From the IMG/VR virus record IMGVR_UViG_3300042522_001048, positions 1 through 30,233 of that record: a stretch of 30,233 nucleotides of DNA; one strand, 5' to 3'. Shown here piece by piece: positions 6,133 to 24,477 of the stretch. Source of the DNA: a virus. The position numbers were made by a program, and so were the translations under genes. The notes beneath the pieces were generated by a model. The model was not told the origin of the DNA and searched no databases. It saw only the letters and a list, made by a program, of their open reading frames with translations. Within the stretch, counting starts at the first letter, position 1. Each line of letters begins with the position of its first letter.

Positions 6133-6163
6133 AAAAGGGACGATTAAACACCGTCCCTTTTTT
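6133..6163. terminator. Bidirectional Rho-independent terminator
   Basis: Stem AAAAGGGACG (6133-6142) and CGTCCCTTTT (6152-6161), 10 bp perfect, 9-nt loop, ending in six T on the plus strand and four T on the minus. It separates the rightward block ending at 5957 from the leftward operon ending at 6162, and serves both. Confidence 0.85.
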
Positions 6164-6428
6164 AATCCAAGATTGAGTAGACGTTTTTTTCTTCGGGTTG
6201 TTTGCGGCGTTTTCGTTTCATGAAAAAGTGGATGGAATCGGCAAGGGATGCTAGGGCAATGCAAAGGCATAGGCTGGCTAGGCCAACGCCTACAGGGGCT
6301 AGGATCACGGGCCAAGGCAAGGACGTGCCATCGTCATTTTTAAGCAAATACAAAAAGCCTGAGCATAGCAGCAAAGACAAAATGATAAAAAACAGATCAA
6401 GGATGATGTAAAAGGATGGGCTTTTCAT
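6162..6428 (-). CDS. Two-helix membrane protein, holin-like
   Basis: An 88-residue protein with two hydrophobic helices (about residues 6-29 and 39-66), a short polar loop (KNDDGTSLPWP), and a strongly basic stretch KRKRRK (71-76) followed by a soluble tail. Size, topology and a charged C-terminus fit class II holins, but many phage membrane proteins look alike and it lies in an early leftward operon, not in a lysis cassette. No endolysin gene is next to it. It is the last gene of the operon; its start overlaps the previous stop as ATGA and its stop abuts the terminator. Confidence 0.65.
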   Translation of the reverse strand: MKSPSFYIILDLFFIILSLLLCSGFLYLLKNDDGTSLPWPVILAPVGVGLASLCLCIALASLADSIHFFMKRKRRKQPEEKNVYSILD

Positions 6429-6778
6429 AGTGTTTCCTCCAGTTTTTTAATCTGTTCTTTCAGTTCTGCGATTTTATTTTTAGTTTCAGCTATTTTTGAT
6501 AGATTCTGAATTTCTTGGTCTATCCACAATTCGCCAGCTTGGTTTTTTAATTCATGTGGGCGATATAAAACTTTGGCGATTGATTGGGATCGACCCATGT
6601 CAAGTTTTTGATAAAAATGTATTTCAATGCCTTCATCGCAAGGCTTGTACCCATCAGTAAGGTAATAATCTTGATCGTAATGCATTCCAAATACAATATC
6701 AAAAAAAAGATTATTAAATTCCTCATTTTTTGACGCTGCGTAATTGACTAAATCGAGCAATTCTTGTCCGTATTTCAT
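6425..6778 (-). CDS. Hypothetical protein with C-terminal coiled coil (117 aa)
   Basis: MKYGQELLDLVNYAASKN... is of unknown family. The C-terminus from about residue 88 (IQNLSKIAETKNKIAELKEQ, then IKKLEETL) shows leucine/isoleucine heptads typical of a coiled coil, so it probably forms dimers or higher oligomers. The middle is acidic and aromatic (FGMHYDQDYYLTDGY). ATG 6778 is preceded by GAGGGGACT; the longer frame from 6820 would enter the neighbouring gene and lacks a ribosome site. It is coupled (ATGA) to the membrane protein gene downstream. Confidence 0.65.
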   Translation of the reverse strand: MKYGQELLDLVNYAASKNEEFNNLFFDIVFGMHYDQDYYLTDGYKPCDEGIEIHFYQKLDMGRSQSIAKVLYRPHELKNQAGELWIDQEIQNLSKIAETKNKIAELKEQIKKLEETL

Positions 6779-6785
6779 AGTCCCC

Positions 6786-7022
6786 TCACGATACGAGTTT
6801 GTGGTGTTCTGTCCATTCACGTGGCATGGACGCTTTAAGCAGCATCAGGTCATGGTTGATGTTTTTGATCTCTGTTCTGCATTCTGCCAGCGTTACGGTT
6901 GCCCTACGGCCTTCCTCGTTGACAAATAGGGCCTTGTGTCCGGCTTCTTCCATTTGGTCCATGCAGCGCGAATAAAAGCCAAGGTCGCGTAGTTTTTTTT
7001 GAATGGTGGTTTGGGTTTTCAT
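6786..7022 (-). CDS. Hypothetical small protein (78 aa)
   Basis: A short helical, charged protein starting MKTQTTIQKKLRDLGFYSRC. Its body, CMDQMEEAGHKALFVNEEGR, shows no family I know. ATG 7022 has AAGGAG eight bases upstream, an excellent site. It is seven bases upstream of 6425-6778 in transcription order and five bases after the 7028-7408 stop, inside a tightly packed leftward operon. Function unknown. Confidence 0.65.
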   Translation of the reverse strand: MKTQTTIQKKLRDLGFYSRCMDQMEEAGHKALFVNEEGRRATVTLAECRTEIKNINHDLMLLKASMPREWTEHHKLVS

Positions 7023-7027
7023 GGTGG

Positions 7028-7408
7028 TTACTCCTTTGTTTTTTGTAAATCTGGGAAAGTTTTTTTAGCTTTGATTAAGGCTTCGTCGAGACGGTCGTAA
7101 TATTCGTCTCCAAGATCAGCTGTAAGAACGTGTGCAAGATTTTTATAATCGTCAAATGCGGTTGCATACTCTGGGTTGCCGTATCGGATACAGCAAGGGC
7201 AGTGTTGGGGGATGGAAGATGGTGTCAGGCCGACACCAAGACGGTTAGTGGGCAGGGGGTTTTCGCGCTCTAATTTTTCTGATATGTGCAAGAGGTGGAT
7301 AGTCAAAAATTCCCTTGTTAGTACAATATCTGAATTCGATGGATAAACATGCTCTGGGAATGCCTCTCTCAGATAGGCATATACTTTGTTCACTCGTGTT
7401 TCAGTCAT
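7028..7408 (-). CDS. Hypothetical protein with CPCC motif (126 aa)
   Basis: Starts MTETRVNKVYAYLREAFPEH. Residues 69-73 (HCPCC) give a cluster of three cysteines and a histidine that could bind a metal, but a second pair of ligands is not obvious. The rest is helical with an acidic C-terminal half (DLGDEYYDRLDEALIKAKK). AAGGAG precedes ATG 7408, and the start overlaps the previous stop as ATGA. Family not recognised. Confidence 0.65.
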   Translation of the reverse strand: MTETRVNKVYAYLREAFPEHVYPSNSDIVLTREFLTIHLLHISEKLERENPLPTNRLGVGLTPSSIPQHCPCCIRYGNPEYATAFDDYKNLAHVLTADLGDEYYDRLDEALIKAKKTFPDLQKTKE

Positions 7409-7665
7409 TGGTTTTCTCCTTTGATTTGGTGGGTCATGATTGGGAATTTAAAGGGGCTATAGGGATTGTATTCTGGCGAGACGTAAGACGTTTCGGCGCG
7501 TTCTTTGCCCCATTTGTTGGTTAAACACGGGCTGTTGAGTTTCTGTTGCTCTAGTAAAATACGGGCGGCGAAGGCTTGCAGTTTTTCGCGTTCATCGGTT
7601 TGTCCAAAGATTTGATTGATGAGATTGTCAATCATTTGGTAGGAAAGGATGTTATTTTGGTTCAT
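7405..7665 (-). CDS. Hypothetical protein (86 aa)
   Basis: MNQNNILSYQMIDNLINQIF... begins with an amphipathic helix and ends in a tail rich in Tyr, Pro and Ser (SYVSPEYNPYSPFKFP). Unassigned. The start at 7665 has AAAGGACCAATCCA before it and lies 14 bases inside the XRE gene, so the two are coupled. A longer frame from 7803 runs antiparallel through the XRE gene and is rejected. It overlaps the next gene by four bases. Confidence 0.6.
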   Translation of the reverse strand: MNQNNILSYQMIDNLINQIFGQTDEREKLQAFAARILLEQQKLNSPCLTNKWGKERAETSYVSPEYNPYSPFKFPIMTHQIKGENQ

Positions 7666-7843
7666 TGGATTGGTCCTTTTGTTTGACAAGGTGCTTGATA
7701 AGCAGCTCCATGGATTTAGGGATGGGGTATTCGCCGGCTTCATAGGATCGGATCGTGCGCACGCATTTCCCCACAAGGGCGCATAGTCCTGTTTGACTGA
7801 CACCCAAGTGTAGCCTTGCTTGTTTAAAATGTTCGGGTGTCAT
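7652..7843 (-). CDS. XRE-family (Cro-like) transcriptional regulator
   Basis: A 63-residue protein that is almost entirely one helix-turn-helix domain (about residues 5-52): FKQARLHLGVSQTGLCALVG, then KCVRTIRSYEAGEYPIPKSM. The helix-turn-helix (SQTGLCALVGKCVRTIRSYE) and the typical E-AG-YPIP end fit the short XRE/Cro group. It probably dimerises and binds inverted repeats; the TGCAA-N3-TTGCA sites in the promoter of its own operon and of the divergent operon are the best candidate targets. Start 7843 overlaps the upstream stop (ATGA). Unlike a cI-type repressor it has no C-terminal peptidase or dimerisation domain. Confidence 0.8.
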   Translation of the reverse strand: MTPEHFKQARLHLGVSQTGLCALVGKCVRTIRSYEAGEYPIPKSMELLIKHLVKQKDQSNEPK

Positions 7844-8277
7844 TTGTGGTGGTTCCTTTGGGGCTTTGGTTCATAGTCGGGATCAAGAAAGAAATCGGTG
7901 TAGGCTTTATAGAGGCCTGATAAAAAGGCTGGTTCCATTTCCTTTCTTTTATTTAGGTCTGGATAGAATTTTTGATGCACTTCTTTGTTTTCATAAGGTG
8001 TTTTGATGACATAGTTTGTGATGGTTTCGTCACCAAAATTTATTGAAAATGTATTGTAAGCAATACTAGGCAAGGCCCATGTTAAAACGAGCTTTCTAAG
8101 GGACGGAGCAACATTGACCTTGGGATAAAGTGGTTCTCCCGTGCGACTGTGATAATACAGCGGCAAAAGATTGCAGATTATGTCTAGAGTTTCACGCTCT
8201 GTTTCAAAAAGCGTGCGATTAAGTTGTGCCTCTAGTGCGTCAAGGCAATGGGTTTTTAAGAAGTTTTCGTCGGTCAT
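7840..8277 (-). CDS. Hypothetical protein (145 aa)
   Basis: MTDENFLKTHCLDALEAQLN... is an unassigned mixed helical/beta protein: an acidic helical N-terminus, a central part with LRKLVLTWALPSIAYNTFSI, and a lysine-rich C-terminal half ending in PQRNHHK. ATG 8277 is preceded by AAGGAAACCAACC, the recurring ribosome site of this phage. A start at 8322 would overlap the 8289-8501 gene. It precedes the XRE gene, sharing ATGA. Confidence 0.65.
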   Translation of the reverse strand: MTDENFLKTHCLDALEAQLNRTLFETERETLDIICNLLPLYYHSRTGEPLYPKVNVAPSLRKLVLTWALPSIAYNTFSINFGDETITNYVIKTPYENKEVHQKFYPDLNKRKEMEPAFLSGLYKAYTDFFLDPDYEPKPQRNHHK

Positions 8278-8288
8278 GGTTGGTTTCC

Positions 8289-8501
8289 TTATTTTGTCTT
8301 GCCCATAATATATTTGTCCCAAGCCATTTGCTCGATCAAAGAGAATGTGGAGGGTCTTTTGTTTTCATGATGTATCACTAGCACGCCGTTTTTTGTGTAG
8401 CGTTTCTGGGCCCATTTGCAAATCACGGAATACCTTTTTTTGTATTCCTCTTCTACTTCGAAATTGGGTTCAAATACTTCTGCGGTGAAGGTTATTGTCA
8501 T
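8289..8501 (-). CDS. Hypothetical small protein, first gene of leftward operon (70 aa)
   Basis: MTITFTAEVFEPNFEVEEEY opens with a beta hairpin-like strand pair and an acidic helix, then a basic segment (KRYSVICKWAQKRYTKNG) and a strand GVLVIHHEN. Unassigned. ATG 8501 is preceded by AAAAGGAAACCAACC. A start at 8543 would fall within the promoter and is rejected. It is the first gene read from the leftward promoter at 8532-8560. Confidence 0.65.
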   Translation of the reverse strand: MTITFTAEVFEPNFEVEEEYKKRYSVICKWAQKRYTKNGVLVIHHENKRPSTFSLIEQMAWDKYIMGKTK

Positions 8502-8531
8502 GGTTGGTTTCCTTTTGTTGATGATAGATAT

Positions 8532-8560
8532 ACAATACTGCAATACTTGCAGTCTGTCAA
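8532..8560 (-). promoter_or_regulatory. Strong leftward promoter with TGCAA operator in spacer
   Basis: On the minus strand TTGACA (8560 to 8555), exactly 17 bases, TATTGT (8537 to 8532). The spacer holds the perfect inverted repeat ACTGCAA (8537-8543) TAC TTGCAGT (8547-8553). A protein bound there would block polymerase. A further half-site TTGCAG lies at 8569-8574. It drives the operon 8501 to 6162. Confidence 0.75.
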
Positions 8561-8674
8561 GGAAGAAATTGCAGCTTCATTACATTTTTTTTATTTTAGG
8601 TTTTTGGGGGATTTTCTTTCGCCCTCCCTCCATTTTGCCGAGTACGCTCAAGAATAAATACTACACTAGTCCAG

Positions 8675-8688
8675 TTTTCTATAGAAAA
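8675..8688. repeat. 14-bp perfect palindrome
   Basis: TTTTCTATAGAAAA reads identically on both strands. It lies between the divergent promoters and could be a regulator site, or a chance result of local AT-richness. Confidence 0.4.
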
Positions 8689-8736
8689 AGGCACAATATA
8701 TAGAGAGATTTTTTTTGAAAAAATAAAAAAAAGGTG

Positions 8737-8765
8737 TTGACATGCTGCAAGAATTGCATTATGTT
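8737..8765 (+). promoter_or_regulatory. Strong rightward promoter with TGCAA operator in spacer
   Basis: TTGACA (8737-8742), 17 bases, TATGTT (8760-8765). The spacer contains TGCAA (8746-8750) GAA TTGCA (8754-8758), closely matching the operator of the divergent promoter (CTGCAAG-ATTGCA shared). The transcript then reads ACATAACAACAACAC. It drives 8815-10529. Confidence 0.75.
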
Positions 8766-8791: not shown

Positions 8792-8818
8792 TAACCAACA
8801 AAGGAAACCAAGCCATGA
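8792..8818 (+). repeat. 27-bp direct repeat, copy 1 (gene leader)
   Basis: This stretch, from TAACCAAC to the ATGA of the clamp-like gene, is identical at 9505-9531 before the ArdC-like gene. It carries the ribosome site AAGGAAACCAAGCC. A recent duplication or recombination hot-spot for gene shuffling is possible. Confidence 0.85.
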
Positions 8819-9486
8819 CCAACGAAACCACAAACCAACTAAACCTTACCTTAACCCTCGATTATAGAGCCCTAAAGGCTGCTGCTATGGCTTGCATCCA
8901 AAAGCAAGATAGATTCTCACACCGCAAAGCCATGCACTGTGTTGCTTTGGATATATCACCGCAAGGCGTGATCGCTGTTGCCACAGATGGCCATACTTTG
9001 ATTGCCATGAAAGCGGGGGAAGGCGTTACAGACGTTGAGCCTGTAACCGTATTGATTCCTTTTGAAGCCATTGACCGCTTAAAACTATCCAAAGCCACTA
9101 ACGATTGCATTGTGACTTTGACTGGCAGTAGTACCAAATGGGGATTTATAAAAGTAACTGGCACATTGTTGCATGACGGATCCAGCGTTGCCTTTACGGG
9201 TGAAGAGGAGTCTTTCCCCGATTGGAGAAGACTTTTTAAAGACTATTTCCCTCAAGGTTGCACAAGTCACACAAACGTAGGGCATTTTAATCCCGCGAAC
9301 ATCTCCAAAATGCAGCAAGCCTACAGTCTTTTTCTTACCAAGAAAGACAAACTAAAATTTGTTCAAATTATCCACAATGGACAAAACGCCGCCCGCGTTG
9401 TTTTTGACGGCGTTGACGGTGAAGGCCTCATCATGCCTTTAAAGGGCAACGATTCTTTTCCTTCACTTGCAACATGGACAAAATAA
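8815..9486 (+). CDS. Sliding-clamp-like (DnaN-like) protein, short
   Basis: A 223-residue protein. Residues 50-85 (GVIAVATDGHTLIAM then a turn and VLIPFEAIDRLK) carry the typical beta-clamp signature 'strand, A-TDGH-L, acidic turn, IP-E'. The FPDWRRLF block, about 130 residues in, corresponds to the 'fPD(y/w)--l' region of clamps. Bacterial DnaN is about 370 residues in three domains, so this is a shorter version or only part of the fold. It could form its own ring or interfere with the host clamp. Start 8815 carries AAGGAAACCAAGCC; the frame extends into the promoter but is rejected there. Assignment by motif only. Confidence 0.65.
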   Translation: MTNETTNQLNLTLTLDYRALKAAAMACIQKQDRFSHRKAMHCVALDISPQGVIAVATDGHTLIAMKAGEGVTDVEPVTVLIPFEAIDRLKLSKATNDCIVTLTGSSTKWGFIKVTGTLLHDGSSVAFTGEEESFPDWRRLFKDYFPQGCTSHTNVGHFNPANISKMQQAYSLFLTKKDKLKFVQIIHNGQNAARVVFDGVDGEGLIMPLKGNDSFPSLATWTK

Positions 9487-9504: not shown

Positions 9505-9531
9505 TAACCAACAAAGGAAACCAAGCCATGA
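9505..9531 (+). repeat. 27-bp direct repeat, copy 2 (gene leader)
   Basis: Identical to 8792-8818, ending in the ATGA of the next gene. It supports ATG 9528 as the true start because the same ribosome site and spacing are repeated. Confidence 0.85.
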
Positions 9532-10313
9532 AACACGACTACGAAACAATCCTAAACGAGGCCCTGGAAAACGAAGGAATCATGAACGAACAGTACACAG
9601 CCTTTCACGAATACAGCGTGGGAAATCAATTTATGGCCAGATGCCAACTCAGAAAATGCGAGCCAATCAAAACCTTTAAAGGATGGCAGGCACTAGGGCG
9701 CACGGTGAAGAAAGGGGAGAAGGCAATCTCTCTTTTGTATCCGTACATCTTTGCAAAAGACAAAGAAGACCCAAGCGGCGAGAGTGTCACAGTCTTTAAA
9801 CCGCGAAACCTTTGGTTTGGATTGTCACAAACAGAAGGCAAAGACTACAAACACGAATTACCGCCAGAAGTGACTAAAGACCGACTACGAAAAATGATGC
9901 TAAACCTAAAGATCACAGGCGAACCCTTTGAACACATGAACGGCAACGTTATGGGATACGCAACAGCCAAAAGAACCGTTGCCATTAACCCATTGTGCAA
10001 GGATCCCTTGCCTGTCCTGTTTCACGAAATAGGGCACGTCCTTTTGGGACATCCTGAAGACATCCACGAATATAGGGCAACCCGAAACGTATGCGAAGCC
10101 GAAGCGGAAAGCGTGTCTTATCTCACCATGGCTTGCTTGGGACTACATACAGAAACAACCAAAGGGCATTCATCGCGCTACATCAAATCTTGGTTAGAAA
10201 ACCCCAAGAACGATATGCGCCTGAACAAGGTTTTTAAGGCCGTGGATGACATTTTAAAAGCCATGGCACAAGAACCTAAAGAAATACCTCAAACCCTCTT
10301 AATCGCAGCCTAA
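9528..10313 (+). CDS. ardC: ArdC-like antirestriction protein with HExxH metallopeptidase
   Basis: A 261-residue protein with the ArdC order: an N-terminal ssDNA-binding-like domain (residues 20-75, FHEYSVGNQFMARCQ then IKTFKGWQALGRTVKKGEKA), a spacer, and an ImmA/IrrE-type zinc metallopeptidase with HEIGH at 166-170 and Glu ligands in CEAEAE (189-194). The C-terminus has SSRYIKSWLEN, also an ArdC feature. ArdC proteins protect incoming DNA from restriction or bind ssDNA; the role in this phage is inferred. ATG 9528 follows the same leader as the clamp-like gene. The gene lies 41 bases after it in the rightward early operon. Confidence 0.85.
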   Translation: MKHDYETILNEALENEGIMNEQYTAFHEYSVGNQFMARCQLRKCEPIKTFKGWQALGRTVKKGEKAISLLYPYIFAKDKEDPSGESVTVFKPRNLWFGLSQTEGKDYKHELPPEVTKDRLRKMMLNLKITGEPFEHMNGNVMGYATAKRTVAINPLCKDPLPVLFHEIGHVLLGHPEDIHEYRATRNVCEAEAESVSYLTMACLGLHTETTKGHSSRYIKSWLENPKNDMRLNKVFKAVDDILKAMAQEPKEIPQTLLIAA

Positions 10314-10325
10314 AGGAACAGAATC

Positions 10326-10529
10326 ATGATTACTCTAATCATCCTCATAATCAACATGGCAAACATTGAGCCACAACAAACAATCCACACGCAAAAATTC
10401 ACAACAAAAGAACAATGCGAAAGTGTAGGGAAGGAAATCCTCCTGATGGAATACGAGCAACTTCAGAAACGAGAAGCATTGAACAAAGACAAGAAGAACT
10501 ATCAGATCAGCTTTAAATGCGTGAAATAG
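10326..10529 (+). CDS. Small protein with hydrophobic N-terminus (67 aa)
   Basis: MITLIILIINMANIEPQQ... begins with a short very hydrophobic stretch (residues 2-10) that could be a signal or membrane anchor, followed by a polar, Lys/Gln-rich body (LQKREALNKDKKN). Unassigned. A ribosome site AAAGGAAC precedes ATG 10326 by six bases. It is the last gene of the early operon; polypurine repeats and a terminator follow. Starting at MANIEP would remove the hydrophobic segment. Confidence 0.6.
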   Translation: MITLIILIINMANIEPQQTIHTQKFTTKEQCESVGKEILLMEYEQLQKREALNKDKKNYQISFKCVK

Positions 10530-10646: not shown

Positions 10647-10676
10647 GCCTTATGCTTTTGCATAGGGCTTTTTTTT
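10647..10676 (+). terminator. Rho-independent terminator of the early operon
   Basis: Stem GCCTTATGC (10647-10655), TTTT loop, GCATAGGGC (10660-10668), 9 bp with one T-G pair, followed by eight T (10669-10676). It separates the early operon from the late operon. Confidence 0.85.
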
Positions 10677-10716: not shown

Positions 10717-11124
10717 ATGGATTGCAAGATGGTATCAAAAACGCCCGAGATCACACGCAGGGCTGGACGGCCTACAGGCAGCACAAAGAAGAAATACCTA
10801 ACGCCGCAACGTATGCAGGACGTGGAGGATACTCTCACACTGTTGACAGGCAAAGCATACGAAGACAGCCCGACAGTGCCCAAAGGATGGGACGTTGAGA
10901 AATGGGCAGAGAACGCTTGCTATAGAGCAACGCAGGTTGTTTGGGGCATTCTTAACGAAAAGGACTCCGACAGCCTCACAGCCGCCCAGATTATCTTCAG
11001 GCTTGCCAAGAAGCTAGAGAGCAAGAACGCATCCAGACAGGCCGTAGAGGACACAATAAACGCTCTAGCAGCAATCAAGCACGTGATCGTAGATGCAAAA
11101 ATTGACCAAAGCCAAAACAGCTAA
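10717..11124 (+). CDS. Terminase small subunit (probable)
   Basis: A 135-residue protein directly before the large terminase, the usual place of the small subunit that recognises the phage genome and starts packaging. It opens with a basic segment (RRAGRPTGSTKKK, residues 14-26) and continues as helices. I cannot point to a certain helix-turn-helix, so the call rests mainly on order and size. The start is ATG 10717 or ATG 10729; neither has a good ribosome site. If transcription starts near 10712 the message would be almost leaderless. It overlaps the next gene by 32 bases. Confidence 0.65.
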   Translation: MDCKMVSKTPEITRRAGRPTGSTKKKYLTPQRMQDVEDTLTLLTGKAYEDSPTVPKGWDVEKWAENACYRATQVVWGILNEKDSDSLTAAQIIFRLAKKLESKNASRQAVEDTINALAAIKHVIVDAKIDQSQNS

Positions 11125-12418
11125 AGCGCGCGCACCCAAAGCAGCGATGCCAAAGGTGGAAGAGATAACAGGGCGCACGCTTGATATCCCCGTCGCTAGG
11201 GTTTTTCAGCCTCTCTTGCAGTCCGCACGGTACAAAGGTATTCACGGCGGCAGGGGATCAGGTAAATCAACGTTTGCGGCGCAGGCCGTGGTGACACAGT
11301 GCCTCTTTCGCCCTGGATTGCGTGTGGTGTGTGTGCGTGAGACGCAAAACAGCTTGAAGGAATCGGTTTACCAGTTAATTGTGGACCAGATAAACAAGCT
11401 AAGCGTTGCCTCAGCGTTCAACGTGCAATCATCGCGCATTATCACACCCGGAAATGGATTGATAATCTTTGCAGGGATGCAGGATCACACGGCCGAAAGT
11501 ATCAAATCCCTTGAAGGCTTTGACATTGCATGGTGTGAAGAGGCCCAGACCATGTCCAGCAGGTCACTGGAGATACTGCGGCCAACCATCCGAAAGATAG
11601 GCAGTGAATTGTGGTTTACGTGGAACCCAAGAAACGCCAGTGATCCCGTGGATCAACTCTTGCGGTGTGAACAGCCACCAAAGGATGCCATTGTAATCAA
11701 GGCCAACTACAACGACAACCCATGGCTGCCTGATGTTCTAAACGAAGAGCGTCTCTATGACCAGAAATTCAAACCAGACAGATACGGCCATATATGGCTT
11801 GGTGAATACGAACCAACGGCCGTAGGGGCAATATGGTCAAGGCAGATACTACACGAGAGCAGACGGCACGATATGCCAGATATGGAGCGCATCCTTGTTG
11901 CTGTTGACCCGAGCGTCACAGCGGGAGAGAATGCAGACGAGAATGGGATCATCGTCGTGGGCAAGGGAGCAGATGGGCGCGGGTATGTTTTGGATGATGT
12001 AAGCCTGAAAGGCACACCGGCACAATGGGCACAAAGAGCCATAGCCGTATATGACCAGTATCAGGCCGATGCTATTGTGGCAGAGGTGAATCAGGGTGGT
12101 TTAATGGTTAAGAATACCATCATGGCCGTGCGTCCTAACGTGCGTGTGATAGAGGTGAGAGCGTCAAAGGGTAAGCATGTAAGGGCAGAGCCTATCAGTG
12201 CCCTATACAACCTTGGCCGCATATCGCATGTGGGCACGTTTCCCGATTTAGAGGCGCAAATGTGCAAAATGACGGCGGCGGGATATGATGGGGAGGGATC
12301 GCCTGACAGGGTAGATGCGCTTGTGTGGGGATTCTCACAGCTTTTTGAACAGCTGGCCAAGGGTAAGCCGAAGTTTACAAAGCCCGTGGTACTTAACGCC
12401 AACTACAGGTTTTACTGA
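11093..12418 (+). CDS. Terminase large subunit (ATPase-nuclease)
   Basis: A 441-residue packaging motor. Walker A is GGRGSGKS (residues 52-59), Walker B region FDIAWCEEAQ (143-152), both as in PBSX/P22-type Terminase_3. The C-terminal RNase-H-like nuclease domain shows VAVDPS (Asp 272), AIVAEVNQGG (Glu 331) and DRVDAL (Asp 405, Asp 408), giving the expected acidic metal-binding residues. It translocates DNA into the procapsid and cuts it. ATG 11093 overlaps the small subunit by 32 bases; a later ATG at 11147 is possible. The stop overlaps the next start by one base (TGATG). Confidence 0.95.
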   Translation: MQKLTKAKTAKARAPKAAMPKVEEITGRTLDIPVARVFQPLLQSARYKGIHGGRGSGKSTFAAQAVVTQCLFRPGLRVVCVRETQNSLKESVYQLIVDQINKLSVASAFNVQSSRIITPGNGLIIFAGMQDHTAESIKSLEGFDIAWCEEAQTMSSRSLEILRPTIRKIGSELWFTWNPRNASDPVDQLLRCEQPPKDAIVIKANYNDNPWLPDVLNEERLYDQKFKPDRYGHIWLGEYEPTAVGAIWSRQILHESRRHDMPDMERILVAVDPSVTAGENADENGIIVVGKGADGRGYVLDDVSLKGTPAQWAQRAIAVYDQYQADAIVAEVNQGGLMVKNTIMAVRPNVRVIEVRASKGKHVRAEPISALYNLGRISHVGTFPDLEAQMCKMTAAGYDGEGSPDRVDALVWGFSQLFEQLAKGKPKFTKPVVLNANYRFY

Positions 12419-12924
12419 TGAGAAGCCTACGCATTAAACAGGAATTCTATTTGGTGTTTTTGCCGTTTGATAAGTCTGAATTTACCACACGATGGGACAG
12501 AATAAGGTTTAGGGCCTTGTCATGGCTTTACGATAAAGGCAAAGGTGATTTTAATGACTTTGGCCATGTGTATATCTTTTTGAAAAAGGCGGATATGCAC
12601 GTTTGCTTAAGTCGAACGCAATGGGGGTATTATTTGGACGCGCAGCGTATGGGGGCACTGTCTCAATCTCTTTTGTTAACAGAGCAAGAGGCCTTTGGGG
12701 TTCTTTTAAAGAAAGAGTATCCACAAAGCAATGCCATTGTGTCCGTTAAGACAACAATATCGCCCAAAAGGTTTTACAAGAAGACGATACACAGTGGGAA
12801 TTTATGTCATCATGTGGCTTGTAATGTCTTAGGTATTGCAGAAAAGATAAAAAGTCCTTATGGATTGTATAAATACTTGGTAAAAAATGGGTCTTTTGTG
12901 GTTAAGGAGCATTCAAATGGTTAG
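12418..12924 (+). CDS. Possible papain-like-fold phage protein (168 aa)
   Basis: MRSLRIKQEFYLVFLPFDKS... The protein has GHVYIFL (residues 49-55) and, near the C-terminus, LCHHVACNVLGI followed by SPYGLYKYL (146-154). The pattern 'C--(h)---LGI---(s/t)PY-LY-YL' occurs in small phage proteins with a papain/NlpC-like fold that follow the large terminase in podoviruses. Candidate catalytic residues are Cys 130 or Cys 135 and His 50, but I cannot confirm. It starts one base inside the terminase stop and ends eight bases into the next gene. Confidence 0.55.
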   Translation: MRSLRIKQEFYLVFLPFDKSEFTTRWDRIRFRALSWLYDKGKGDFNDFGHVYIFLKKADMHVCLSRTQWGYYLDAQRMGALSQSLLLTEQEAFGVLLKKEYPQSNAIVSVKTTISPKRFYKKTIHSGNLCHHVACNVLGIAEKIKSPYGLYKYLVKNGSFVVKEHSNG

Positions 12925-13192
12925 TAGTGTTTTGCCTTTGGCGTTTGGAGCCATTTCTGGTGGGATAGCCGCCAAAAGACAGCAGAAAGCGGCCAAGAGC
13001 GATGCCAAGGCGCAGTCGGTAGAGCAAGACAAGATTGCCCGAGCCCAGATGCAGCAGGAAAAGACGTTAAAGGACCAAGAGAACGAACAAAAGCGGTTAC
13101 GGTCCGAGCAGTTACGGGCATTGCGGGGCAGGAATGGCGCAAGGTCGTTAATTACCACGGGTGAAACTGGATTAACAGGATTGATAGGGTAG
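12917..13192 (+). CDS. Small structural protein (91 aa), hydrophobic start and coiled coil
   Basis: Begins with a hydrophobic alanine/glycine segment (SSVLPLAFGAISGGIAA, residues 3-19), then a long Lys/Gln/Glu-rich helix (about 20-70), probably a coiled coil, and ends RGRNGARSLITTGETGLTG, an arginine-glycine motif often seen in small proteins next to portal genes. AAGGAG lies five bases before ATG 12917; a start at 12887 is not favoured. A role in the head-tail region is inferred from place and form only. Confidence 0.65.
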   Translation: MVSSVLPLAFGAISGGIAAKRQQKAAKSDAKAQSVEQDKIARAQMQQEKTLKDQENEQKRLRSEQLRALRGRNGARSLITTGETGLTGLIG

Positions 13193-13194
13193 AT

Positions 13195-13461
13195 ATGACA
13201 AAAACAATCACAAAGCCTATTAAAAAGATTATAAGTCCGGTTAAGAATGTTTTGGGAGGAAAGCCCAAGAAACAACCCGCTGCGCCTGTAAACAGCAATA
13301 ATCAGGCCACAACGGCAGACATAAAGCCGAATGACCCACGCTTGGATATGTCCCCTGATCAGATTTTGGCGGAGCGCAAAAAGAAGACAAAAACCCGCAT
13401 GGGAAGAACACGAGACACCTCTTTGCTTTACGATAGCAATTTACCTGTAACGATTGGTTAG
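13195..13461 (+). CDS. Small basic protein before portal (88 aa)
   Basis: A lysine-rich N-terminus (MTKTITKPIKKIISPVKN) is followed by a proline/asparagine-rich linker and RKKKTKTRMGRTRDTSLLY, with the GRTRDTS part resembling the arginine motif of the preceding gene. Unassigned; a basic virion protein that contacts DNA or the portal is possible. It lies two bases after the previous stop and one base before the portal start, so it is part of the same late unit. Confidence 0.65.
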   Translation: MTKTITKPIKKIISPVKNVLGGKPKKQPAAPVNSNNQATTADIKPNDPRLDMSPDQILAERKKKTKTRMGRTRDTSLLYDSNLPVTIG

Positions 13462-13462
13462 C

Positions 13463-15064
13463 ATGTTAGACGTTGAAACAGTCTTAAAAAGACACCAGAA
13501 AGCCCAAGGCGAAAAAGACGAAAACAGGTCTTTGTTTGAGGAGGTGATAAACTACGTTCACCCGTTCAAAAACACCTATAACAAAAACTCTTCGCACGAA
13601 GCGAATCAATCAAACACTTTGCAGCATGACAGCACGCCGCTTGTGTCTGCTATCAATTTTATCAACACCTTGTCAAAAAAGTTTACGCCGCAGTTTACGC
13701 GGTGGGTTGAACTTGAGGTTGGGCCTGGTATGCCTGATGAATACCGCAATACGTTTGATAGTGCCTTGGAAAAACTAAACGAATTGATCTTTTCGTTTAT
13801 TGAAACAAGTAACTATGCTGCGATTAAACCAAGGGTGTATTTTGATCTTGGTATTGGCACGGGATGCTATGACATCATGCCAAATCCGAATCGCAATGAA
13901 AACCCTTTGCTGTTTTTGGATCAGCCGCTTGTGGATTTAAGCCTTGTTAGTCGTGCCGATGGTTTTATCAGCATGAAATTTATTGATAAAACCGTCAAAA
14001 ATTGTGACTTGAAAGCCATTTATGGGGGCCAGTTAGATTTAACGGGGGAAATAGAGCGGAGCATTAAAGAAAAGCCTGATGTCAATATCAAGATTGTGGA
14101 GGCTGTCTATTGGTCGGATGAAAAGAAGCTATGGTATTTTGAGGTTATTCACCACCAGTTAAAGCACAAGATGCTTAGTATTCCTTACCGTGAGTGTCCA
14201 CGCATCACGCCGCGATGGTTGACGATACCAGGGCAATCGTTTGGCGTAGGGCCGTTCACGTTGGCTTTGTCGGACATTCGGCAATTAAACTCTTTGCGGA
14301 TGTTAGAGCATCAATCGGCAGCGTTTAGCACGTTTGGGGCCTATACTGTGGCAGGTATGGACACCATGAATCCGACAAATTGGGTAATGCAGCCCATGTC
14401 ATTCTTTCCTGTGGAGCGGAATGGTGGGCCAGATGGTCCAAGCATTGCGCCATTTCCAAATGTAGGGAATTTCCAGTCACAGGAATATATGATTTCGGGA
14501 ATGCAAGATCAGGTTAGGCAGATTATGCTGGATCGCCGGTTGCCCCCTGAAACAGCGCAGCCCAAAACGGCTTTTGAGATTGCCGAGCGATTAAAAGAAC
14601 TGGAAACAGACATTGGGGCAGCCTTGCCGCAGTTGTACTATGAGGATGTGATGCCAGCCACGCGCCGAATTGTTTCGATATTGCAAGAAAGCGGCCATTT
14701 AAACGGCATTTTGCAAAAAGAATTAGGGGCTATCAAGGGCATTAACCTTGCGGATTGGCTCAATGGTTATGCTTTAAAGATCAAAATCACCAGTCCTATA
14801 TCGCGTTTGCAGTCTGTGCAGGATGTGCAAGCCTTTACACAAGGGTTTAGTATTTTGCAAGGCATGATGCCTGAAATATCTACCATGTCCCTTAATCTTC
14901 CTAAAACGGTGCATTGGATTTTTGATAAATTGGGCGCACCAAATAATCTTTTATTATCAGAGGAAGCTTTACAGCAGTTACAGCAGCAGTTACAACAGGC
15001 GGCGGCGCAGGGTGCGGCGCAAATACAACAACAAAGTCAACCACAACCGTTAGGCGTTGCATGA
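13463..15064 (+). CDS. Portal (head-tail connector, T7 gp8-like)
   Basis: A 533-residue protein, almost the length of T7 gp8 (536). Its opening (a helical start with NRSLFEEVINYVHP), the LSLVSRADGFISMKFID region and the helical C-terminal part (PETAQPKTAFEIAERLKE) match the head-tail connector family. It forms the dodecameric ring through which DNA enters the capsid. The C-terminus is unusual: a glutamine-rich stretch (LQQLQQQLQQAAAQ and QIQQQSQPQPLG). The start is ATG 13463, one base after the previous stop. It shares ATGA with the next gene. Confidence 0.9.
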   Translation: MLDVETVLKRHQKAQGEKDENRSLFEEVINYVHPFKNTYNKNSSHEANQSNTLQHDSTPLVSAINFINTLSKKFTPQFTRWVELEVGPGMPDEYRNTFDSALEKLNELIFSFIETSNYAAIKPRVYFDLGIGTGCYDIMPNPNRNENPLLFLDQPLVDLSLVSRADGFISMKFIDKTVKNCDLKAIYGGQLDLTGEIERSIKEKPDVNIKIVEAVYWSDEKKLWYFEVIHHQLKHKMLSIPYRECPRITPRWLTIPGQSFGVGPFTLALSDIRQLNSLRMLEHQSAAFSTFGAYTVAGMDTMNPTNWVMQPMSFFPVERNGGPDGPSIAPFPNVGNFQSQEYMISGMQDQVRQIMLDRRLPPETAQPKTAFEIAERLKELETDIGAALPQLYYEDVMPATRRIVSILQESGHLNGILQKELGAIKGINLADWLNGYALKIKITSPISRLQSVQDVQAFTQGFSILQGMMPEISTMSLNLPKTVHWIFDKLGAPNNLLLSEEALQQLQQQLQQAAAQGAAQIQQQSQPQPLGVA

Positions 15065-15345
15065 ATTTAGACAATCCTTTAAATTTTACCTTAAAAGGGC
15101 AAAAAGAAAACCCTATTTTACAGCAACATAAAAGGCTGGCTTTGGATTTTTACCATGTGTTCAATTCCCCAGCAGGGGAGAGAGTTTTGGCATTCTTGAA
15201 ATCAAAGACATTGGACCAGCCTTGCTGGAATCCTGGTTATGGAGAGAATGCCGAAAGGACTGCCTATGCACGAGAGGGGCAGAATAATATCGTTCGTGAA
15301 ATCATCAAAATGATACAATTTGGAAAGGAAACACCCAATGAGTGA
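15061..15345 (+). CDS. Bbp19-like small phage protein
   Basis: A 94-residue protein whose core fits the Bbp19-like pattern found next to portal and scaffold genes: 'F-SPAGE-VLAFL' (residues 34-46), a central aromatic/glycine part (PCWNPGYGENA) and 'YAREGQNNIVREIIKMI' (69-85). The biochemical role of the family is unknown. It starts in an ATGA overlap with the portal and ends eight bases inside the scaffold gene, so these three are probably translated together. Confidence 0.75.
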   Translation: MNLDNPLNFTLKGQKENPILQQHKRLALDFYHVFNSPAGERVLAFLKSKTLDQPCWNPGYGENAERTAYAREGQNNIVREIIKMIQFGKETPNE

Positions 15346-16183
15346 TGCTGAAAGTTTGTTAGGCGATGCGTCTTTAGCGGCCCCTGTTGCCACCACAGAA
15401 GGGCAAGAGCCTGTTATTGTCACCCGTCCTGATAATATCCCTGAGTCTTTCTGGGATGCAGAGAAGAATGCCCTTAAAACGGATGATTTGCTAAAGTCCT
15501 ATGATGATGCAGAAAAACGCGCCAAAGGATTGCGGGACAAACTGGCTAAAGGTTGGCAGAACGTGCCTGACGATGCCACAAAATATGCGTTTGAATTGCC
15601 AGACACCTTTAAGGAAACGTTGGCAGACGGTGAATTAAACGAAGATATGGTCGATTTTGCCAAGGCAGCAGCGTTTGAGTCTGGCCTTTCTCAAGAGCAA
15701 TTTAATAATTTTATGGGAAGAATTATTCCCCAGTTACATGAATACGGGATCAACTTAGATAACAGAGAGCCAACGCCTGAAGAGATTGAGGCCCAACAAA
15801 AAGAGATTGCCGAAGCCAAGCAAGCAGAATTTCAAAAATTAGGAGATGGCGCGGATAGAATTATTGCCAGCGTGAGAGCAAACCTTGAAACCATTAAATC
15901 CCAAAACATCTTTACAGAATCAGAGTTAGACTTGATTCAAAATGGCCTAGGGTCATCGGCGGATGGTGTGTTGGTTTTAGATAAGATGTTTACCAAGATG
16001 TTTGGGCAAAAGACGGCCATTACGAATTTTGATGTGAAAGCATCGTCTTTTGGTGTTATCACGGAAGATGCTTTAAAAGATCGTCTTGATGATAGAAGAA
16101 ACGCAACAAATTCAGCATTTTATCAAGAAACCCAACGAATGATAGAGCAATACGGGGAACAAAAAAAACGCATGCAAAAATAG
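15338..16183 (+). CDS. Capsid assembly scaffold (T7 gp9-like)
   Basis: A 281-residue acidic, helical protein between portal and capsid, as in T7 (gp9, 307 residues). Features include a disordered acidic N-terminus with PDNIPESFWD, a charged helix (EIEAQQKEIAEAKQAEFQKL) and a basic end (EQKKRMQK), typical of scaffolds whose C-terminus touches the capsid shell. It shapes the procapsid and then leaves. GGAAAGGAAACACCC precedes ATG 15338; a start at 15320 is less likely. A 129-base gap to the capsid gene follows. Confidence 0.85.
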   Translation: MSDAESLLGDASLAAPVATTEGQEPVIVTRPDNIPESFWDAEKNALKTDDLLKSYDDAEKRAKGLRDKLAKGWQNVPDDATKYAFELPDTFKETLADGELNEDMVDFAKAAAFESGLSQEQFNNFMGRIIPQLHEYGINLDNREPTPEEIEAQQKEIAEAKQAEFQKLGDGADRIIASVRANLETIKSQNIFTESELDLIQNGLGSSADGVLVLDKMFTKMFGQKTAITNFDVKASSFGVITEDALKDRLDDRRNATNSAFYQETQRMIEQYGEQKKRMQK

Positions 16184-16312
16184 ATATTTACAAAGCGTTA
16201 TTGTTGTTTTATGTTGATAAAAAAACGACCTATTTTTAGGCCCGCATCTTGCCCCTAATAAAAAAATAGCCCTCTCGTTGATCGTGAAAAATCAATTTAA
16301 AAAGAGGGACTT
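16184..16312 (+). promoter_or_regulatory. Structured leader of major capsid gene
   Basis: A 129-base gap. A hairpin pairs CCCTCT (16270-16275) with AGAGGG (16303-16308), which is the ribosome site of the capsid gene, and an inner stem TTGAT (16278-16282) / ATCAA (16291-16295). A short CCTA-TTTT-TAGG element lies further upstream. No good promoter is visible. The hairpin would reduce or time translation. Confidence 0.45.
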
Positions 16313-17194
16313 ATGTCGTCTTTACAGCAGGCCAATAACTTTGCTATTGAGTTTGATCTAAAAACAAAACTCGATGCAACATTAGAAGATACAAAATTAC
16401 GGAAAATATGCCAGGTTCGTCAAGGTGTTGTGGGTTCAACCACCACGTTTAACAGAGTTGGTTTAATGACGACAAACCAGCGTACAGTGGGTGCTGGCCC
16501 GTTACAGGCTCAAGATGTGGCCCAAAGCCACGTTGTTGCGACTATTAGCGTGTTTGATGCCGTCACAATGCTTGATGACACGGAGATGGATCGTATTACG
16601 TATGATTTGAAATCGTATTTGATTAAAGCAGCCAGATCAGCGGTGATTAACCGTATTGAACAGGTCATTATCAATGCCATGAACACGGGTGCAAGTGCCA
16701 CAATTTCAGTAGGTGCGGATGGTACAAACTGGACACTGGCAAACATGATTGAGTTGGCAAACATTTTTGACCGATTGAACATGCCACAGCAAGGGCGTTA
16801 TTTTGTTGTTCACCCAAACAGCTTAAAAGCGGCTTTGCAGCAAAGCACGGTAACAAGTGCTGATTTTAACACTTTGATGGCTCTTATGGGGTCCACAGGT
16901 GATTTAACGGGCAAATCTTACCTTGGTTTTGAGTTTATTGTCATGGGTAACTTAGATACACCGGAAGGTGGATTGCCGTTTAACGGTACAACAAACGTGC
17001 GGACAAACTTTGCTGTTTGTGCGGATCATGTAGGTCTTGCTTTTAACCGAGACATTCGCACAAAAGTGTCTATGATTGACCGTGAAGATTCATGGCAGAT
17101 TATGGCTTCTGTTTCGGTAGGTGCTGTTGGTATCGGCAGTACGCAAGCTGGAAAAGAAGGAATTTACAGATACTTAATTGACGAAGCAGTTTAG
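16313..17194 (+). CDS. Major capsid protein
   Basis: A 293-residue protein following the scaffold gene. It has the look of a HK97-fold capsid: an acidic start region (AIEFDLKTKLDATLEDTKL), a helical spine (LIKAARSAVINRIEQVIINA), an alternating beta/helix middle and a well-ordered beta C-terminus ending VGAVGIGSTQAGKEGIYRYL. It is shorter than T7 gp10A (345). Hundreds of copies form the head. GAGGGACTT before ATG 16313 is sequestered by a leader hairpin. I see no sign of the T7-type frameshift product. Confidence 0.85.
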   Translation: MSSLQQANNFAIEFDLKTKLDATLEDTKLRKICQVRQGVVGSTTTFNRVGLMTTNQRTVGAGPLQAQDVAQSHVVATISVFDAVTMLDDTEMDRITYDLKSYLIKAARSAVINRIEQVIINAMNTGASATISVGADGTNWTLANMIELANIFDRLNMPQQGRYFVVHPNSLKAALQQSTVTSADFNTLMALMGSTGDLTGKSYLGFEFIVMGNLDTPEGGLPFNGTTNVRTNFAVCADHVGLAFNRDIRTKVSMIDREDSWQIMASVSVGAVGIGSTQAGKEGIYRYLIDEAV

Positions 17195-17202
17195 GAGAAC
17201 TT

Positions 17203-17535
17203 ATGCCTTATATCGCAAGAAATCTCGTTTCCGTTGGGGGCGAACACTCAGGAACATCAGTTATTACATCGGGCGTGGCTCGCCGCGCTCCTATGCAATT
17301 TACTTATGGAACATCGGATTCTATTACCACATGTCGTGCCAGTGGATATTTTAACAATGCAGCTAATCTTCTTAGAAAGGGCGATCTAGTGACAATTACC
17401 AGTTACTCAGGTGCTGATTTTGAGACAAACGCTGCCGTTACTATTTCTGGTTATCAAAACATGGTTGTCTTAACGAGCGTCAACGGTGTTGTGGACTTAT
17501 CGGACGGATCATCTATTGGTTTAACAAACACTTAA
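17203..17535 (+). CDS. Probable capsid-associated (decoration-like) protein
   Basis: A 110-residue beta-rich protein with repeated short strands (TTCRASGYFNNAANLLRKGD, LVTITSYSGAD, AAVTISGYQNMVVLTSVNGV). It directly follows the capsid gene with a TAGGAGAACTT ribosome site, the place where a decoration, fibre or capsid stabilising protein is often encoded. The family is not recognised; a gp17-independent minor structural role is equally possible. A 15-base gap separates it from the tail tube gene. Confidence 0.6.
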   Translation: MPYIARNLVSVGGEHSGTSVITSGVARRAPMQFTYGTSDSITTCRASGYFNNAANLLRKGDLVTITSYSGADFETNAAVTISGYQNMVVLTSVNGVVDLSDGSSIGLTNT

Positions 17536-17550
17536 TAATTTGGGCTTGTT

Positions 17551-18177
17551 ATGAGTTCGCGTGAAAGCATCGCATCGCAAGCCCTATCCCTTTTGGGGGC
17601 CAACACTATTTCAAGTTTTGATGAAGGCACCAATGAAGCCAACATCATAAACGATCATTATGACCAGTTTATTCGGAATATGTTTAGTGTATTTCCCTGG
17701 TCTTTTGCCACGCGCAAGGTGCAGCTAGAGCAATACAGCAGCAATCCTCTTAATGAATTTTCTTTTCAATATGTGCGGCCCGATCAGGCTTTGTATATTT
17801 TTAAGCTATTTAATTCCCTAGAATATCATGCTCAAGCCATTACAGATTTTGACACCCTAGAGGATTTTGTCCTTTGCAATTACGATGACCCCATTATAGC
17901 ACAGTATTCTGTTTACAAAGAGGAAAATCTTTGGCCTGGCTATTTTGCGGAATTTGCCGTCAATGCCCTTGCAGCAACCATTGCCGTGCCTGTGACGCAC
18001 AATGCTGATTTGGCAAGATTGTATGATGAAAAAGCTTATGGTCCCCAGCAATCGGTAAGAAAGGGCGGATTATTTGCACGGGCGGTGGGTTCAGATTCCC
18101 GTCAAAAGCCCCCAGTTATGCTTAATGGCAACCCTATTATTGCCTCTCGTTATGGGTGGCGAGGCTATGGTTATTAA
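17551..18177 (+). CDS. Tail tubular protein A (T7 gp11-like)
   Basis: A 208-residue protein (T7 gp11 has 196). The opening ESIASQALSLLGANTISSFD plus EGTNEANIINDHYDQFIRNM, followed by 'F-WSFATRKVQLE', is the recognised start of tail tubular A; the motif 'W-GYFAEFAVNALAATIAVP' near residue 130 is also typical. It forms the adaptor ring between portal and nozzle. ATG 17551 has only weak ribosome signals and comes 15 bases after the previous stop. The stop overlaps the tail tubular B start by one base. Confidence 0.9.
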   Translation: MSSRESIASQALSLLGANTISSFDEGTNEANIINDHYDQFIRNMFSVFPWSFATRKVQLEQYSSNPLNEFSFQYVRPDQALYIFKLFNSLEYHAQAITDFDTLEDFVLCNYDDPIIAQYSVYKEENLWPGYFAEFAVNALAATIAVPVTHNADLARLYDEKAYGPQQSVRKGGLFARAVGSDSRQKPPVMLNGNPIIASRYGWRGYGY

Positions 18178-20516: not shown

Positions 20517-21064
20517 CCTCTAGCTTTCTTCCTTCAATGACCTCTATAGCAACAAACGTTGCGGGGCTTTTTGGCGATACGCCACAAGGTGTGGGTGGAT
20601 TGACGGCCTTAAGCACATCGGGATTTATGGCCAAACAGAGCCTCCTTTCCGACATTGCCAAGCCTGCTTTGGTGGGATTTGGGGCAGGAAGTCAGATTGG
20701 TTCAGGCTATGCCCAAAAATACAGTTTAAAAACCCAAGCGCGGGATGCGGAATTGCAAGCCAAACAAGAGGAATTGAATGCTTTTTCCCAGCAGAATTTC
20801 TTTCAGCAAACCTTGTCTGAGAATTTCGCTTCACAAACGGCAAAACTGGCGGCAAGGGGTATTCTTACAACAGGTCCGTCTTCGTTTGCCTTTGCCAGTC
20901 GTTCGGCGCAAAACACCACAAAAGACATTGAAACGGCAAAAATGTCAGGCTTAGTGCGTTCGAGCCAAGCACGGCGCACGGGGATCAGTTTAAGCAAGCA
21001 ATCAAAGCAAGCCGTGCAAGGTGGTTTTGGCAATGCCTTTTCGTTTTTGGCTGAGGCATTTTAA
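20513..21064 (+). CDS. Internal virion protein (T7 gp14-like)
   Basis: A 183-residue protein (T7 gp14 has 196). A glycine/alanine-rich hydrophobic N-terminal third is followed by a helical, glutamine-rich body, with KAAARG-like LAARGILTTGPSSFAF at about residue 112. It lies in the gp14 position after tail tubular B and before two long virion proteins. gp14-type proteins are ejected first and form an outer-membrane channel. The start overlaps the preceding stop as ATGA. Call by order, size and composition. Confidence 0.75.
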   Translation: MTSSFLPSMTSIATNVAGLFGDTPQGVGGLTALSTSGFMAKQSLLSDIAKPALVGFGAGSQIGSGYAQKYSLKTQARDAELQAKQEELNAFSQQNFFQQTLSENFASQTAKLAARGILTTGPSSFAFASRSAQNTTKDIETAKMSGLVRSSQARRTGISLSKQSKQAVQGGFGNAFSFLAEAF

Positions 21065-21066
21065 CA

Positions 21067-23052: not shown

Positions 23053-23055
23053 TCC

Positions 23056-24477
23056 ATGGACGGCATCGCCTCTTTTTTAAAACCTTATTCCCCCAGCAAG
23101 CCAGACATTGCTGTTGATTATAGCCCCGATTCCTTTTTAGAGAATGCCCAAGCGCAGTTTTGGAGCATGGCCTCTAACGAAACCACCACCTATCGTGATT
23201 TACGCCAGATCAGAATGGAATCCGACCGCTTAGATGCGCTGCGTCCTTATATCGGTGACAATCCTGATTATACCAAAATGGCGGGATTTGAAACGCTAAC
23301 AGAAGAAGACAAAGCTCTTGTACGTGGGGAATTTTCTTTATCGAGAGTGTTTTTAGGCGATAGCAAAGAAGCCGCATTAAAAGCAAACCAAATCAGAAAC
23401 ACCCTTCTTGATGGCGTTGTAGATGGGCTAAGAGCGCAAGGACAAGGGCAAGACCTGAAAACATCTAAAGAGATGATGTCCACCATTGTTGAAGAAGCCA
23501 AAACTTACCAACAAGAAGCTAACGTCAAATTCCGTGGCTCAACGAATCTCAGTGCTATTGGGGGCCTTTTGGCAGGGGGTGCAGCGGGATCATTGGTGGA
23601 CCCCGTCAATGCAGTAGCCACCTTTATAGGGCCAAGTGCAGGTGTTAAGTTAGGCAAGGCACTATTGCAAGGTTTTGCGCTTAATGCAGGTGTTCAGGCC
23701 GTCCAGCAAGAAACGGATGAGTTTCGAGAATGGAAGCAGCAACTGGGCGCAGAATGGGGCATAGAAGAACGTCTTTCTAACATTGCCTTTGCAGGTTTTG
23801 CGGGTTCTGCTTTTGAAGGCATTGCGCGTGGTTTAAAAGTCCTACCGAGTGTATCCATGACAGCGGCGGAGCATTTATTCAGAAACAAAAAAGCCAGTGC
23901 TGGTGGCGGTATAAACACCCAAGCCTTGGCTGATGAATTGGCAATTAAAGCCAGACAAGCGCATATCATGGAAACGGCCCCTGATAATTCTATCAATGGG
24001 CTAAGGAATCATGAAGCGGCTTTGCGTGATTTGGATAATGGGAAGCTGGATGTCCCAAGTGTGGATAACCAACGGTTTAAAGATGATATTATCAATTCTA
24101 AAAACATCATAACCGACGATATGCCCAATTCTTATAGGGGGCTAAAGGAATCTATTAAACAAAATACCGCTGTGAACGTAGCGGCGGCAGACAATCAATT
24201 TGACGTACAAAAAGAATCCGCTTTTTTCCCCAAAGCCAGAGAAGACTTTAATCCCCAACAAATAGTCAATCCACCACCGAAACAATTATCATCCTTACAA
24301 ACAGAGATGGAGCGGGCCGCAGACCTTAAACTGAGTGCTTTTGAAGGCATGGTAGAGCGTGACCCCGAGGCGTTTGTTGTGATTGACGGCAATGCAACGC
24401 GCGTAGCAGACATCTTGGAAACAGTGAGGGAATTTGATAACCATGTGAATGCGTTTAAAGCCTGTGGGATATTATGA
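23056..24477 (+). CDS. Internal virion protein, gp16 N-part-like (473 aa)
   Basis: The N-terminus includes SPDSFLENAQAQFWSMASNE; a gly/ala-rich hydrophobic block (IGGLLAGGAAGSLVDPVNAV, about residues 167-186) probably contacts membranes during ejection. I see no transglycosylase catalytic motif, unlike T7 gp16 whose N-terminus is a transglycosylase. Its length plus that of the next gene (473 + 820 = 1293) is close to gp16 (1318), so the two may be a split gp16. It overlaps the next gene as ATGA. Confidence 0.7.
   Translation: MDGIASFLKPYSPSKPDIAVDYSPDSFLENAQAQFWSMASNETTTYRDLRQIRMESDRLDALRPYIGDNPDYTKMAGFETLTEEDKALVRGEFSLSRVFLGDSKEAALKANQIRNTLLDGVVDGLRAQGQGQDLKTSKEMMSTIVEEAKTYQQEANVKFRGSTNLSAIGGLLAGGAAGSLVDPVNAVATFIGPSAGVKLGKALLQGFALNAGVQAVQQETDEFREWKQQLGAEWGIEERLSNIAFAGFAGSAFEGIARGLKVLPSVSMTAAEHLFRNKKASAGGGINTQALADELAIKARQAHIMETAPDNSINGLRNHEAALRDLDNGKLDVPSVDNQRFKDDIINSKNIITDDMPNSYRGLKESIKQNTAVNVAAADNQFDVQKESAFFPKAREDFNPQQIVNPPPKQLSSLQTEMERAADLKLSAFEGMVERDPEAFVVIDGNATRVADILETVREFDNHVNAFKACGIL

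Follow-up and report, generated by a model that had tools for sequence, protein, structure and literature searches.

The question raised by this locus, part of a 30,233-base viral record from IMG/VR (the window, meaning the whole stretch of DNA that was analysed), is whether its two divergent promoters are switched together through one shared operator and, if so, which protein would read it. The twin divergent TTGACA-N17-TATnnT promoters with TGCAA-N3-TTGCA in their spacers, as set out in a preliminary description of the locus, were borne out base for base: the leftward promoter (minus strand, 8560-8532) reads TTGACA-GACTGCAAGTATTGCAG-TATTGT and the rightward promoter (plus strand, 8737-8765) TTGACA-TGCTGCAAGAATTGCAT-TATGTT, and in both the spacer is exactly 17 bases, positions 4 to 16 of which are taken up by the repeat. 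The sequence said to be common to the left and right repeats is likewise present, the stretch CTGCAAGnATTGCA occurring in both. The features of the region are as follows.

6162-7665, minus strand: remainder of the left operon, small proteins at 7405-7665, 7028-7408, 6786-7022, 6425-6778 and 6162-6428
7652-7843, minus strand: third gene of the left operon, a 63-aa XRE (HTH_3-type) protein, the proposed repressor
7840-8277, minus strand: second gene of the left operon, 145 aa, no known family; in relatives usually directly before the XRE gene
8289-8501, minus strand: first gene of the left operon, 70 aa, no known family; varies between phages
8502-8531, minus strand: leader with the shared AAAGGAAACCAA-CCATG ribosome-binding block
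8532-8560, minus strand: leftward promoter of the XRE operon; -35 TTGACA at 8555-8560, -10 TATTGT at 8532-8537
8537-8553, no strand: left operator ACTGCAA-TAC-TTGCAGT, 7-bp arms; core TGCAA-N3-TTGCA at 8539-8551, in the spacer
8569-8573, minus strand: additional half-site TGCAA, close upstream of the leftward promoter's -35 and 22 bp away from the left operator
8737-8765, plus strand: rightward promoter; -35 TTGACA at 8737-8742, -10 TATGTT at 8760-8765
8746-8758, no strand: right operator TGCAA-GAA-TTGCA, 5-bp arms, in the spacer
8815-9486, plus strand: first gene of the right operon, 223 aa, weakly like the DNA polymerase III beta clamp
9528-10313, plus strand: second gene of the right operon, an ArdC-like anti-restriction protein with a zincin-type domain
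10326-10529, plus strand: 67-aa ORF, also found after ArdC in related phages
10647-10668, plus strand: terminator-like hairpin followed by T8, which would end the right operon ahead of the terminase genes

The two operators are the only exact TGCAA-N3-TTGCA sites in the 30,233 bases, and no other sigma70-like promoter between 5,000 and 14,000 ranks as high as the two that hold them (10 of 12 matches). The composite TTGACA-N3-TGCAA-N3-TTGCA was seen twice against 1.3e-4 expected under a first-order Markov model of the window, a post hoc figure, so that the conservation of promoter and repeat carries more weight. In the left operon the start and stop of the XRE gene overlap the adjoining genes, and the small proteins at 7405-7665, 6786-7022 and 6162-6428 are conserved in all eight genomes of the group that were compared. 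The clamp-like product of the right operon matched Pfam DNA_pol3_beta_2 below the cut-off (E 0.01), PHROG 947 (processivity factor) with E 7e-4 and PHROG 3007, labelled RusA-like, with E 3.5e-13, and the ArdC-like product matched Pfam ArdcN with 34.2 bits (cut-off 22.6) and an anti-restriction PHROG with E 2.4e-12. Since a terminator-like hairpin lies between them and the terminase genes, these right-hand genes appear to form an early unit apart from the structural genes. The ribosome-binding block AAGGAAACCA stands close before the ATG at only four starts in the window (8501 and 8277 on the minus strand, 8815 and 9528 on the plus strand), all of them in the left and right operons, and in relatives the block occurs in operator-controlled cassettes. 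As a separate observation, the first early gene on the right encodes this short clamp-like protein, relatives of which were found in four other contigs, one of them (L076, 43% identity) without the operator.

In order to assess conservation, the search of related phages for the motif that had been proposed earlier was carried out as a DNA scan of IMG/VR with TTGACANNNTGCAANNNTTGCA, which gave 70 loci. Promoter and repeat were found again as a composite in about 26 further viral contigs of the group, these being the loci with the window's extended form, TTGACA-NN-CTGCAA-NN-ATTGCNG-TA, and several carry two or three copies. A looser DNA pattern lacking the -35 gave mostly chance matches and was used as a control only. 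A separate query with the XRE protein returned 21 IMG/VR contigs encoding a close relative (83-95% identity), and in all 21 an operator promoter lies upstream of the XRE gene, the distal operator arm being TTGCC rather than TTGCA in most relatives. Of the whole records searched, 16 contain the XRE gene, and all 16 have two to four copies of the operator promoter; a reversed control pattern gave no instance. The copies are divergent in the window and in four of its closest terminase relatives and tandem in the others, are often far apart as well, and precede different accessory genes. Grouping of the four leading genes downstream of the operators gave 37 families, almost none of them annotated. 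No such promoter was present in the stretches searched of terminase relatives at 65% identity or less.

Alignment of the XRE-operon promoter from 22 sequences showed near identity from TGCAATTTCTTCC via TTGACA-NNCTGCAANTATTGCNG-TATTGT to the CAAAAGGAAAC ribosome-binding block. This block, from half-site to ribosome-binding site, is conserved in 22 of 22, whilst the DNA on its upstream side comes from contexts that are unrelated and the gene that follows is variable. The extra TGCAA half-site at 8569-8573 forms its left edge and is possibly a second, weaker operator; its first four bases, TGCA, never vary in this synteny alignment, and its final A is replaced in a single one of the 22 sequences; at one locus (L084) the half-site is TGCAT and is accompanied by a second arm, TTGCC, resembling a second, weak operator. 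Both the conserved half-site and the inclusion of leader and ribosome-binding block in the shared unit go beyond the preliminary description.

The XRE gene accompanies the operator. An XRE profile built mostly from the window's group and the relative at L042 matched 23 of the 70 viral loci against none of 78 control loci, the latter carrying a similar 17-mer without the promoter. Among the 23 are loci of other phages or operons (L042, L026/L030/L031, L010, L014, L018 and L021); L042 has a 71-aa XRE protein (44% identical), two operators and an ArdC-like gene, and at L010, L014, L018 and L021 a DUF2442-like protein with a C-terminal HTH adjoins the site. Conservation in relatives thus gives good support to the suggestion that the repeat would act as a shared operator switching both operons together, and co-occurrence of operator and XRE gene equally supports the XRE protein at 7652-7843 as the candidate binder, by far the best one.

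The family and fold of this protein were assessed by profile searches and structure prediction. Against Pfam HTH_3 the XRE protein scored 20.9 bits (E 3.8e-4), below the curated cut-off of 23, which one relative just reaches. An earlier model built on a shallow alignment, in which 16 of the 17 sequences were almost the same, merged two helices and gave no useful fold matches. The AlphaFold model from alignment A3 is a canonical HTH (pLDDT 94) with helices at 3-13, 17-24, 28-36 and 43-59, of which 17-24 and 28-36 form the helix-turn-helix, and together with matches to XRE structures it places the protein in the lambda-repressor-type HTH fold. The nearest structures were Aca2 (Z 10.0), HigA2 (9.8), NE0471 (DUF2442-HTH type, 9.6), Aca10 (9.6) and MqsA (8.6), with Aca1 also present; the best neighbours are thus small autorepressors, and the list leaves room for other families. 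In sequence, a profile of close relatives matched the phage 434 repressor best among solved structures (E 3e-4), and matches to named Aca proteins were distant (Aca10, 7xi5, E 0.002; Aca2 and Aca1, about 3e-5 with a mixed profile).

The recognition helix begins V28-R29-T30-I31, with Arg29 as its second residue. In alignment A3, Arg29 is present in 24 of 24 HTH sequences from operator-bearing loci and Tyr34 is invariant, and two aligned phage XRE relatives without the operator (L315 and L316) have other residues at position 29. Arginine at this position is common among XRE proteins generally, and its conservation is therefore compatible with TGCAA specificity and does not prove it. At five of the seven loci of this second group (L316, L317, L318, L319 and L321) a promoter carries TTGACA-N3-TGTCAA instead, which is suggestive only. 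The phages with TTGACA-N3-TGTCAA encode a different small XRE protein (MTKKQFIELRESMQLTRMQ...), and their repeat includes the -35 and has the same three-base centre with a different half-site.

We consider it probable, with good confidence, that the XRE protein acts via TGCAA-N3-TTGCA as an Aca-like autorepressor and controls an early regulon with several promoters. Host RNA polymerase would read both strong, near-consensus sigma70 promoters early in infection. We infer that the XRE protein then binds the single 13-bp operator that each promoter carries between -35 and -10, and that it represses rather than activates: a dimer would set one recognition helix on each TGCAA half-site and exclude polymerase. 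The protein would in this way shut down its own operon together with all others that carry the operator (in this phage the clamp-like/ArdC operon), and expression would come as an early burst, with coordinated repression afterwards, as it does in anti-CRISPR operons under Aca control. In relatives the promoter-operator-leader block would be a portable unit, two to four copies per genome standing before rapidly exchanged small genes and all answering to one XRE gene. Counting against this model, the 63-aa protein has little space for a separate dimerisation domain.

In order to establish whether the operator occurs outside viruses, 84,980 bacterial and archaeal genomes were scanned at the DNA level only with the pattern TTGACANNNTGCAANNNTTGCANTANNNT. 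The operator lay in a promoter spacer at 44 loci against about 2 expected from simple base-count arithmetic. A same-strand gene for an XRE-type HTH protein followed within 900 bp at 36 of the 44 loci against 0 of 78 controls with the mixed profile, which includes sequences from some of the tested loci; a more independent profile gave a weaker but still clear result in the same direction. Most of the 44 loci are promoters of XRE-nucleotidyltransferase fusions, whose start lies some 47 bases downstream of the first -35 base, or of DUF4160 followed by DUF2442-HTH, the HTH protein being presumably of the DUF2442 type (Pfam gave only HTH there). The same operator is thus linked to other XRE regulators. 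At L254-L297, from Lachnospiraceae and other Clostridia and including many XRE-nucleotidyltransferase fusions, the promoter of these fusions holds GTGCAA-N3-TTGCAC, predicted to be a very regular autoregulatory site. A literature search found no published operator of the sequence TGCAA-N3-TTGCA.

These chromosomal operons raise the alternative that a host-encoded XRE regulator reads the phage operators and so ties the phage early operons to the state of the host, which we regard as unlikely. Along with the use of the same operator by chromosomal DUF2442-HTH and XRE-nucleotidyltransferase operons, it draws on a phage, G023, with six copies of a very similar promoter; a search of G023 for a regulator of the Arg-29 XRE type found none recognisable. 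G023 and also G024, which has two copies, count against the autorepressor model. G023 (50 kb; loci L058, L066 and L329-L331) has its six promoters, TTGACA-N3-YGCARCNNTTGCAC-TA or close to it, between 10031 and 22258, all on the minus strand. The site can therefore exist without a visible phage regulator, and may be read as well by a host protein or by a phage regulator of an unrelated kind. Against control by the host, operators and XRE gene go together in all records of the window's group in which both are visible, and the distant terminase relatives lack the promoter in the stretches searched.

The preliminary description had also suggested that the region could be the phage's decision switch, and this was not upheld. 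A divergent pair of operons around an intergenic region with operators, together with an XRE protein that might serve as CI or Cro, does recall a lysis-lysogeny decision region, and an O-like replication protein is encoded in the same phages. Neither a tyrosine integrase (PF00589) nor a serine recombinase (PF00239) was found in any of 11 records, namely the window and ten related ones, several of them 38-40 kb, which may be fragments. No CI-type partner was found, each of the three group records searched giving a single HTH_3 match; a second, possibly HTH-like protein of 92 aa with no family assignment is conserved in the phages. The divergent layout is not kept among relatives, in which the copies often stand in tandem and far from one another, and the same type of site on both promoters means that they would be repressed alike and so would not set up two opposed states. 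On the missing integrase or resolvase and the single type of site at both promoters we reject a lysis-lysogeny switch, which we judge quite improbable.

That the repeats are incidental, either recent duplications of one promoter or a hairpin or terminator with no bound protein, seems to us very improbable. The copies are indeed similar and the left repeat scores as terminator-like. Transcription, however, is expected to start downstream of the repeat and would not include it, for which reason the terminator or hairpin reading of the left repeat was rejected; moreover the arms are kept where the flanks of the copies differ, and unrelated bacterial operons with HTH genes have the repeat at the same promoter position. 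Activation by the XRE protein from within the spacer is hardly credible: MerR sites do lie between -35 and -10, as these do, but MerR-type activation requires a spacer of 19-20 bases, the 17-base spacer here is already optimal with good -35 and -10 boxes, and the structural neighbours are repressors.

Amongst known systems, the proposed autorepressor resembles the Aca proteins (Aca2 of phage ZF40, Aca1 and Aca10) and their acr-aca operons, in which a small HTH protein is encoded in the operon that it controls, as proposed here. An inverted repeat lies within the core promoter of the XRE protein's own operon; for Aca1, Aca2, Aca3 and Aca10 published work supports repression from a site within the core promoter that keeps polymerase off, and an in-core-promoter repeat is predicted for each bacterial Aca family (PMC8434428, PMC9410906, PMC9410881). 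The modelled HTH-domain fold is shared, and an arginine on the recognition helix is shared with Aca2, where R30 is needed (PMC8434428). Unlike Aca2, the XRE protein has no C-terminal dimerisation domain, and the operators differ in sequence from those of Aca10 (ATACGCTCATTGAGCGTAT) and of an Aca2 probe with TTCGCAATTGCGAA (PMC9410881). A further difference from Aca systems is that several promoters per genome share the site in the window's phage group. No anti-CRISPR gene was recognisable among the operon proteins examined, most of which have no family; because no anti-CRISPR neighbour was identified and the sequence similarity is distant, we do not file the XRE protein as a named Aca.

In the archaeal virus SIRV2, many small, dispersed, fast-evolving early genes carry one regulatory sequence, and repression by one small HTH protein, Aca8, is proposed (PMC11065993). 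The window's group is similar in that several early units share one regulatory sequence, but in SIRV2 the promoter is of the archaeal TATA/BRE type, the protein a winged HTH and the copies about 11, as against a sigma70 promoter, an XRE fold and 2-4 copies here. The bacterial DUF4160/DUF2442-HTH and XRE-nucleotidyltransferase operons share the TGCAA-N3-TTGCA core in the same promoter place, upstream of an HTH with Arg at the R29 position; unlike the phage system they have single promoters in separate operons, mostly in bacterial genomes, their arms are usually GTGCAA-N3-TTGCAC and other domains are fused to the HTH. The antitoxin MqsA also has the HTH fold and binds 5-bp half-sites three bases apart (AACCT-N3-AGGTT), so that the three-base centre and half-site length agree and the half-site sequence differs; unlike the XRE protein it has an extra zinc domain and a toxin partner. 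Phage 434 and lambda-type CI/Cro proteins share the HTH_3 fold, but no multi-operator OR/OL layout, second regulator or integrase was seen in the window's group.

Aca-type control is already known, and the variant proposed here is a multi-promoter early regulon with an XRE protein. A putative target site can thereby be assigned, from sequence alone, to a class of very small XRE proteins, and one repressor probably serves several interchangeable early cassettes in bacteriophages, a one-repressor, many-cassette design of which an archaeal virus is the main example known to us. The operator, short and specific, is easily searched and could serve to compile candidate genes for counter-defence; one of its neighbours, ArdC, is already of that type. 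It could also predict the operators of two bacterial HTH operon families. More tentatively, the operator promoter and ribosome-binding block might be a mobile tag, such that genes acquired behind it join the early regulon of one XRE protein; that these would be mostly counter-defence proteins is a biological role that we infer, and we hold the whole proposal to be doubtful. Were it true, a search for the tag would reveal new anti-defence genes in uncultured bacteriophages, and phage regulons and chromosomal toxin-antitoxin-like operons would be connected by one TGCAA-N3-TTGCA code, that of the Arg-29-type XRE proteins.

Comparison with cultured phages gave one doubtful match for the XRE protein and only distant matches (<60% identity), spread over many hosts, for the terminase and two conserved proteins. 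The phages are also strongly mosaic: when 10717-30233 of the window is compared with G001, G003, G007, G009 and G010, one and the same early region is seen to adjoin packaging and structural genes of at least two unrelated sets, with different terminases. In G007 (10822-11442, minus strand), G009 (31184-31804, minus strand), L062 and L071 pentapeptide repeats, some 140 residues long, are fused to the XRE protein, which then has 206 aa in total and an HTH part that is nearly unchanged.
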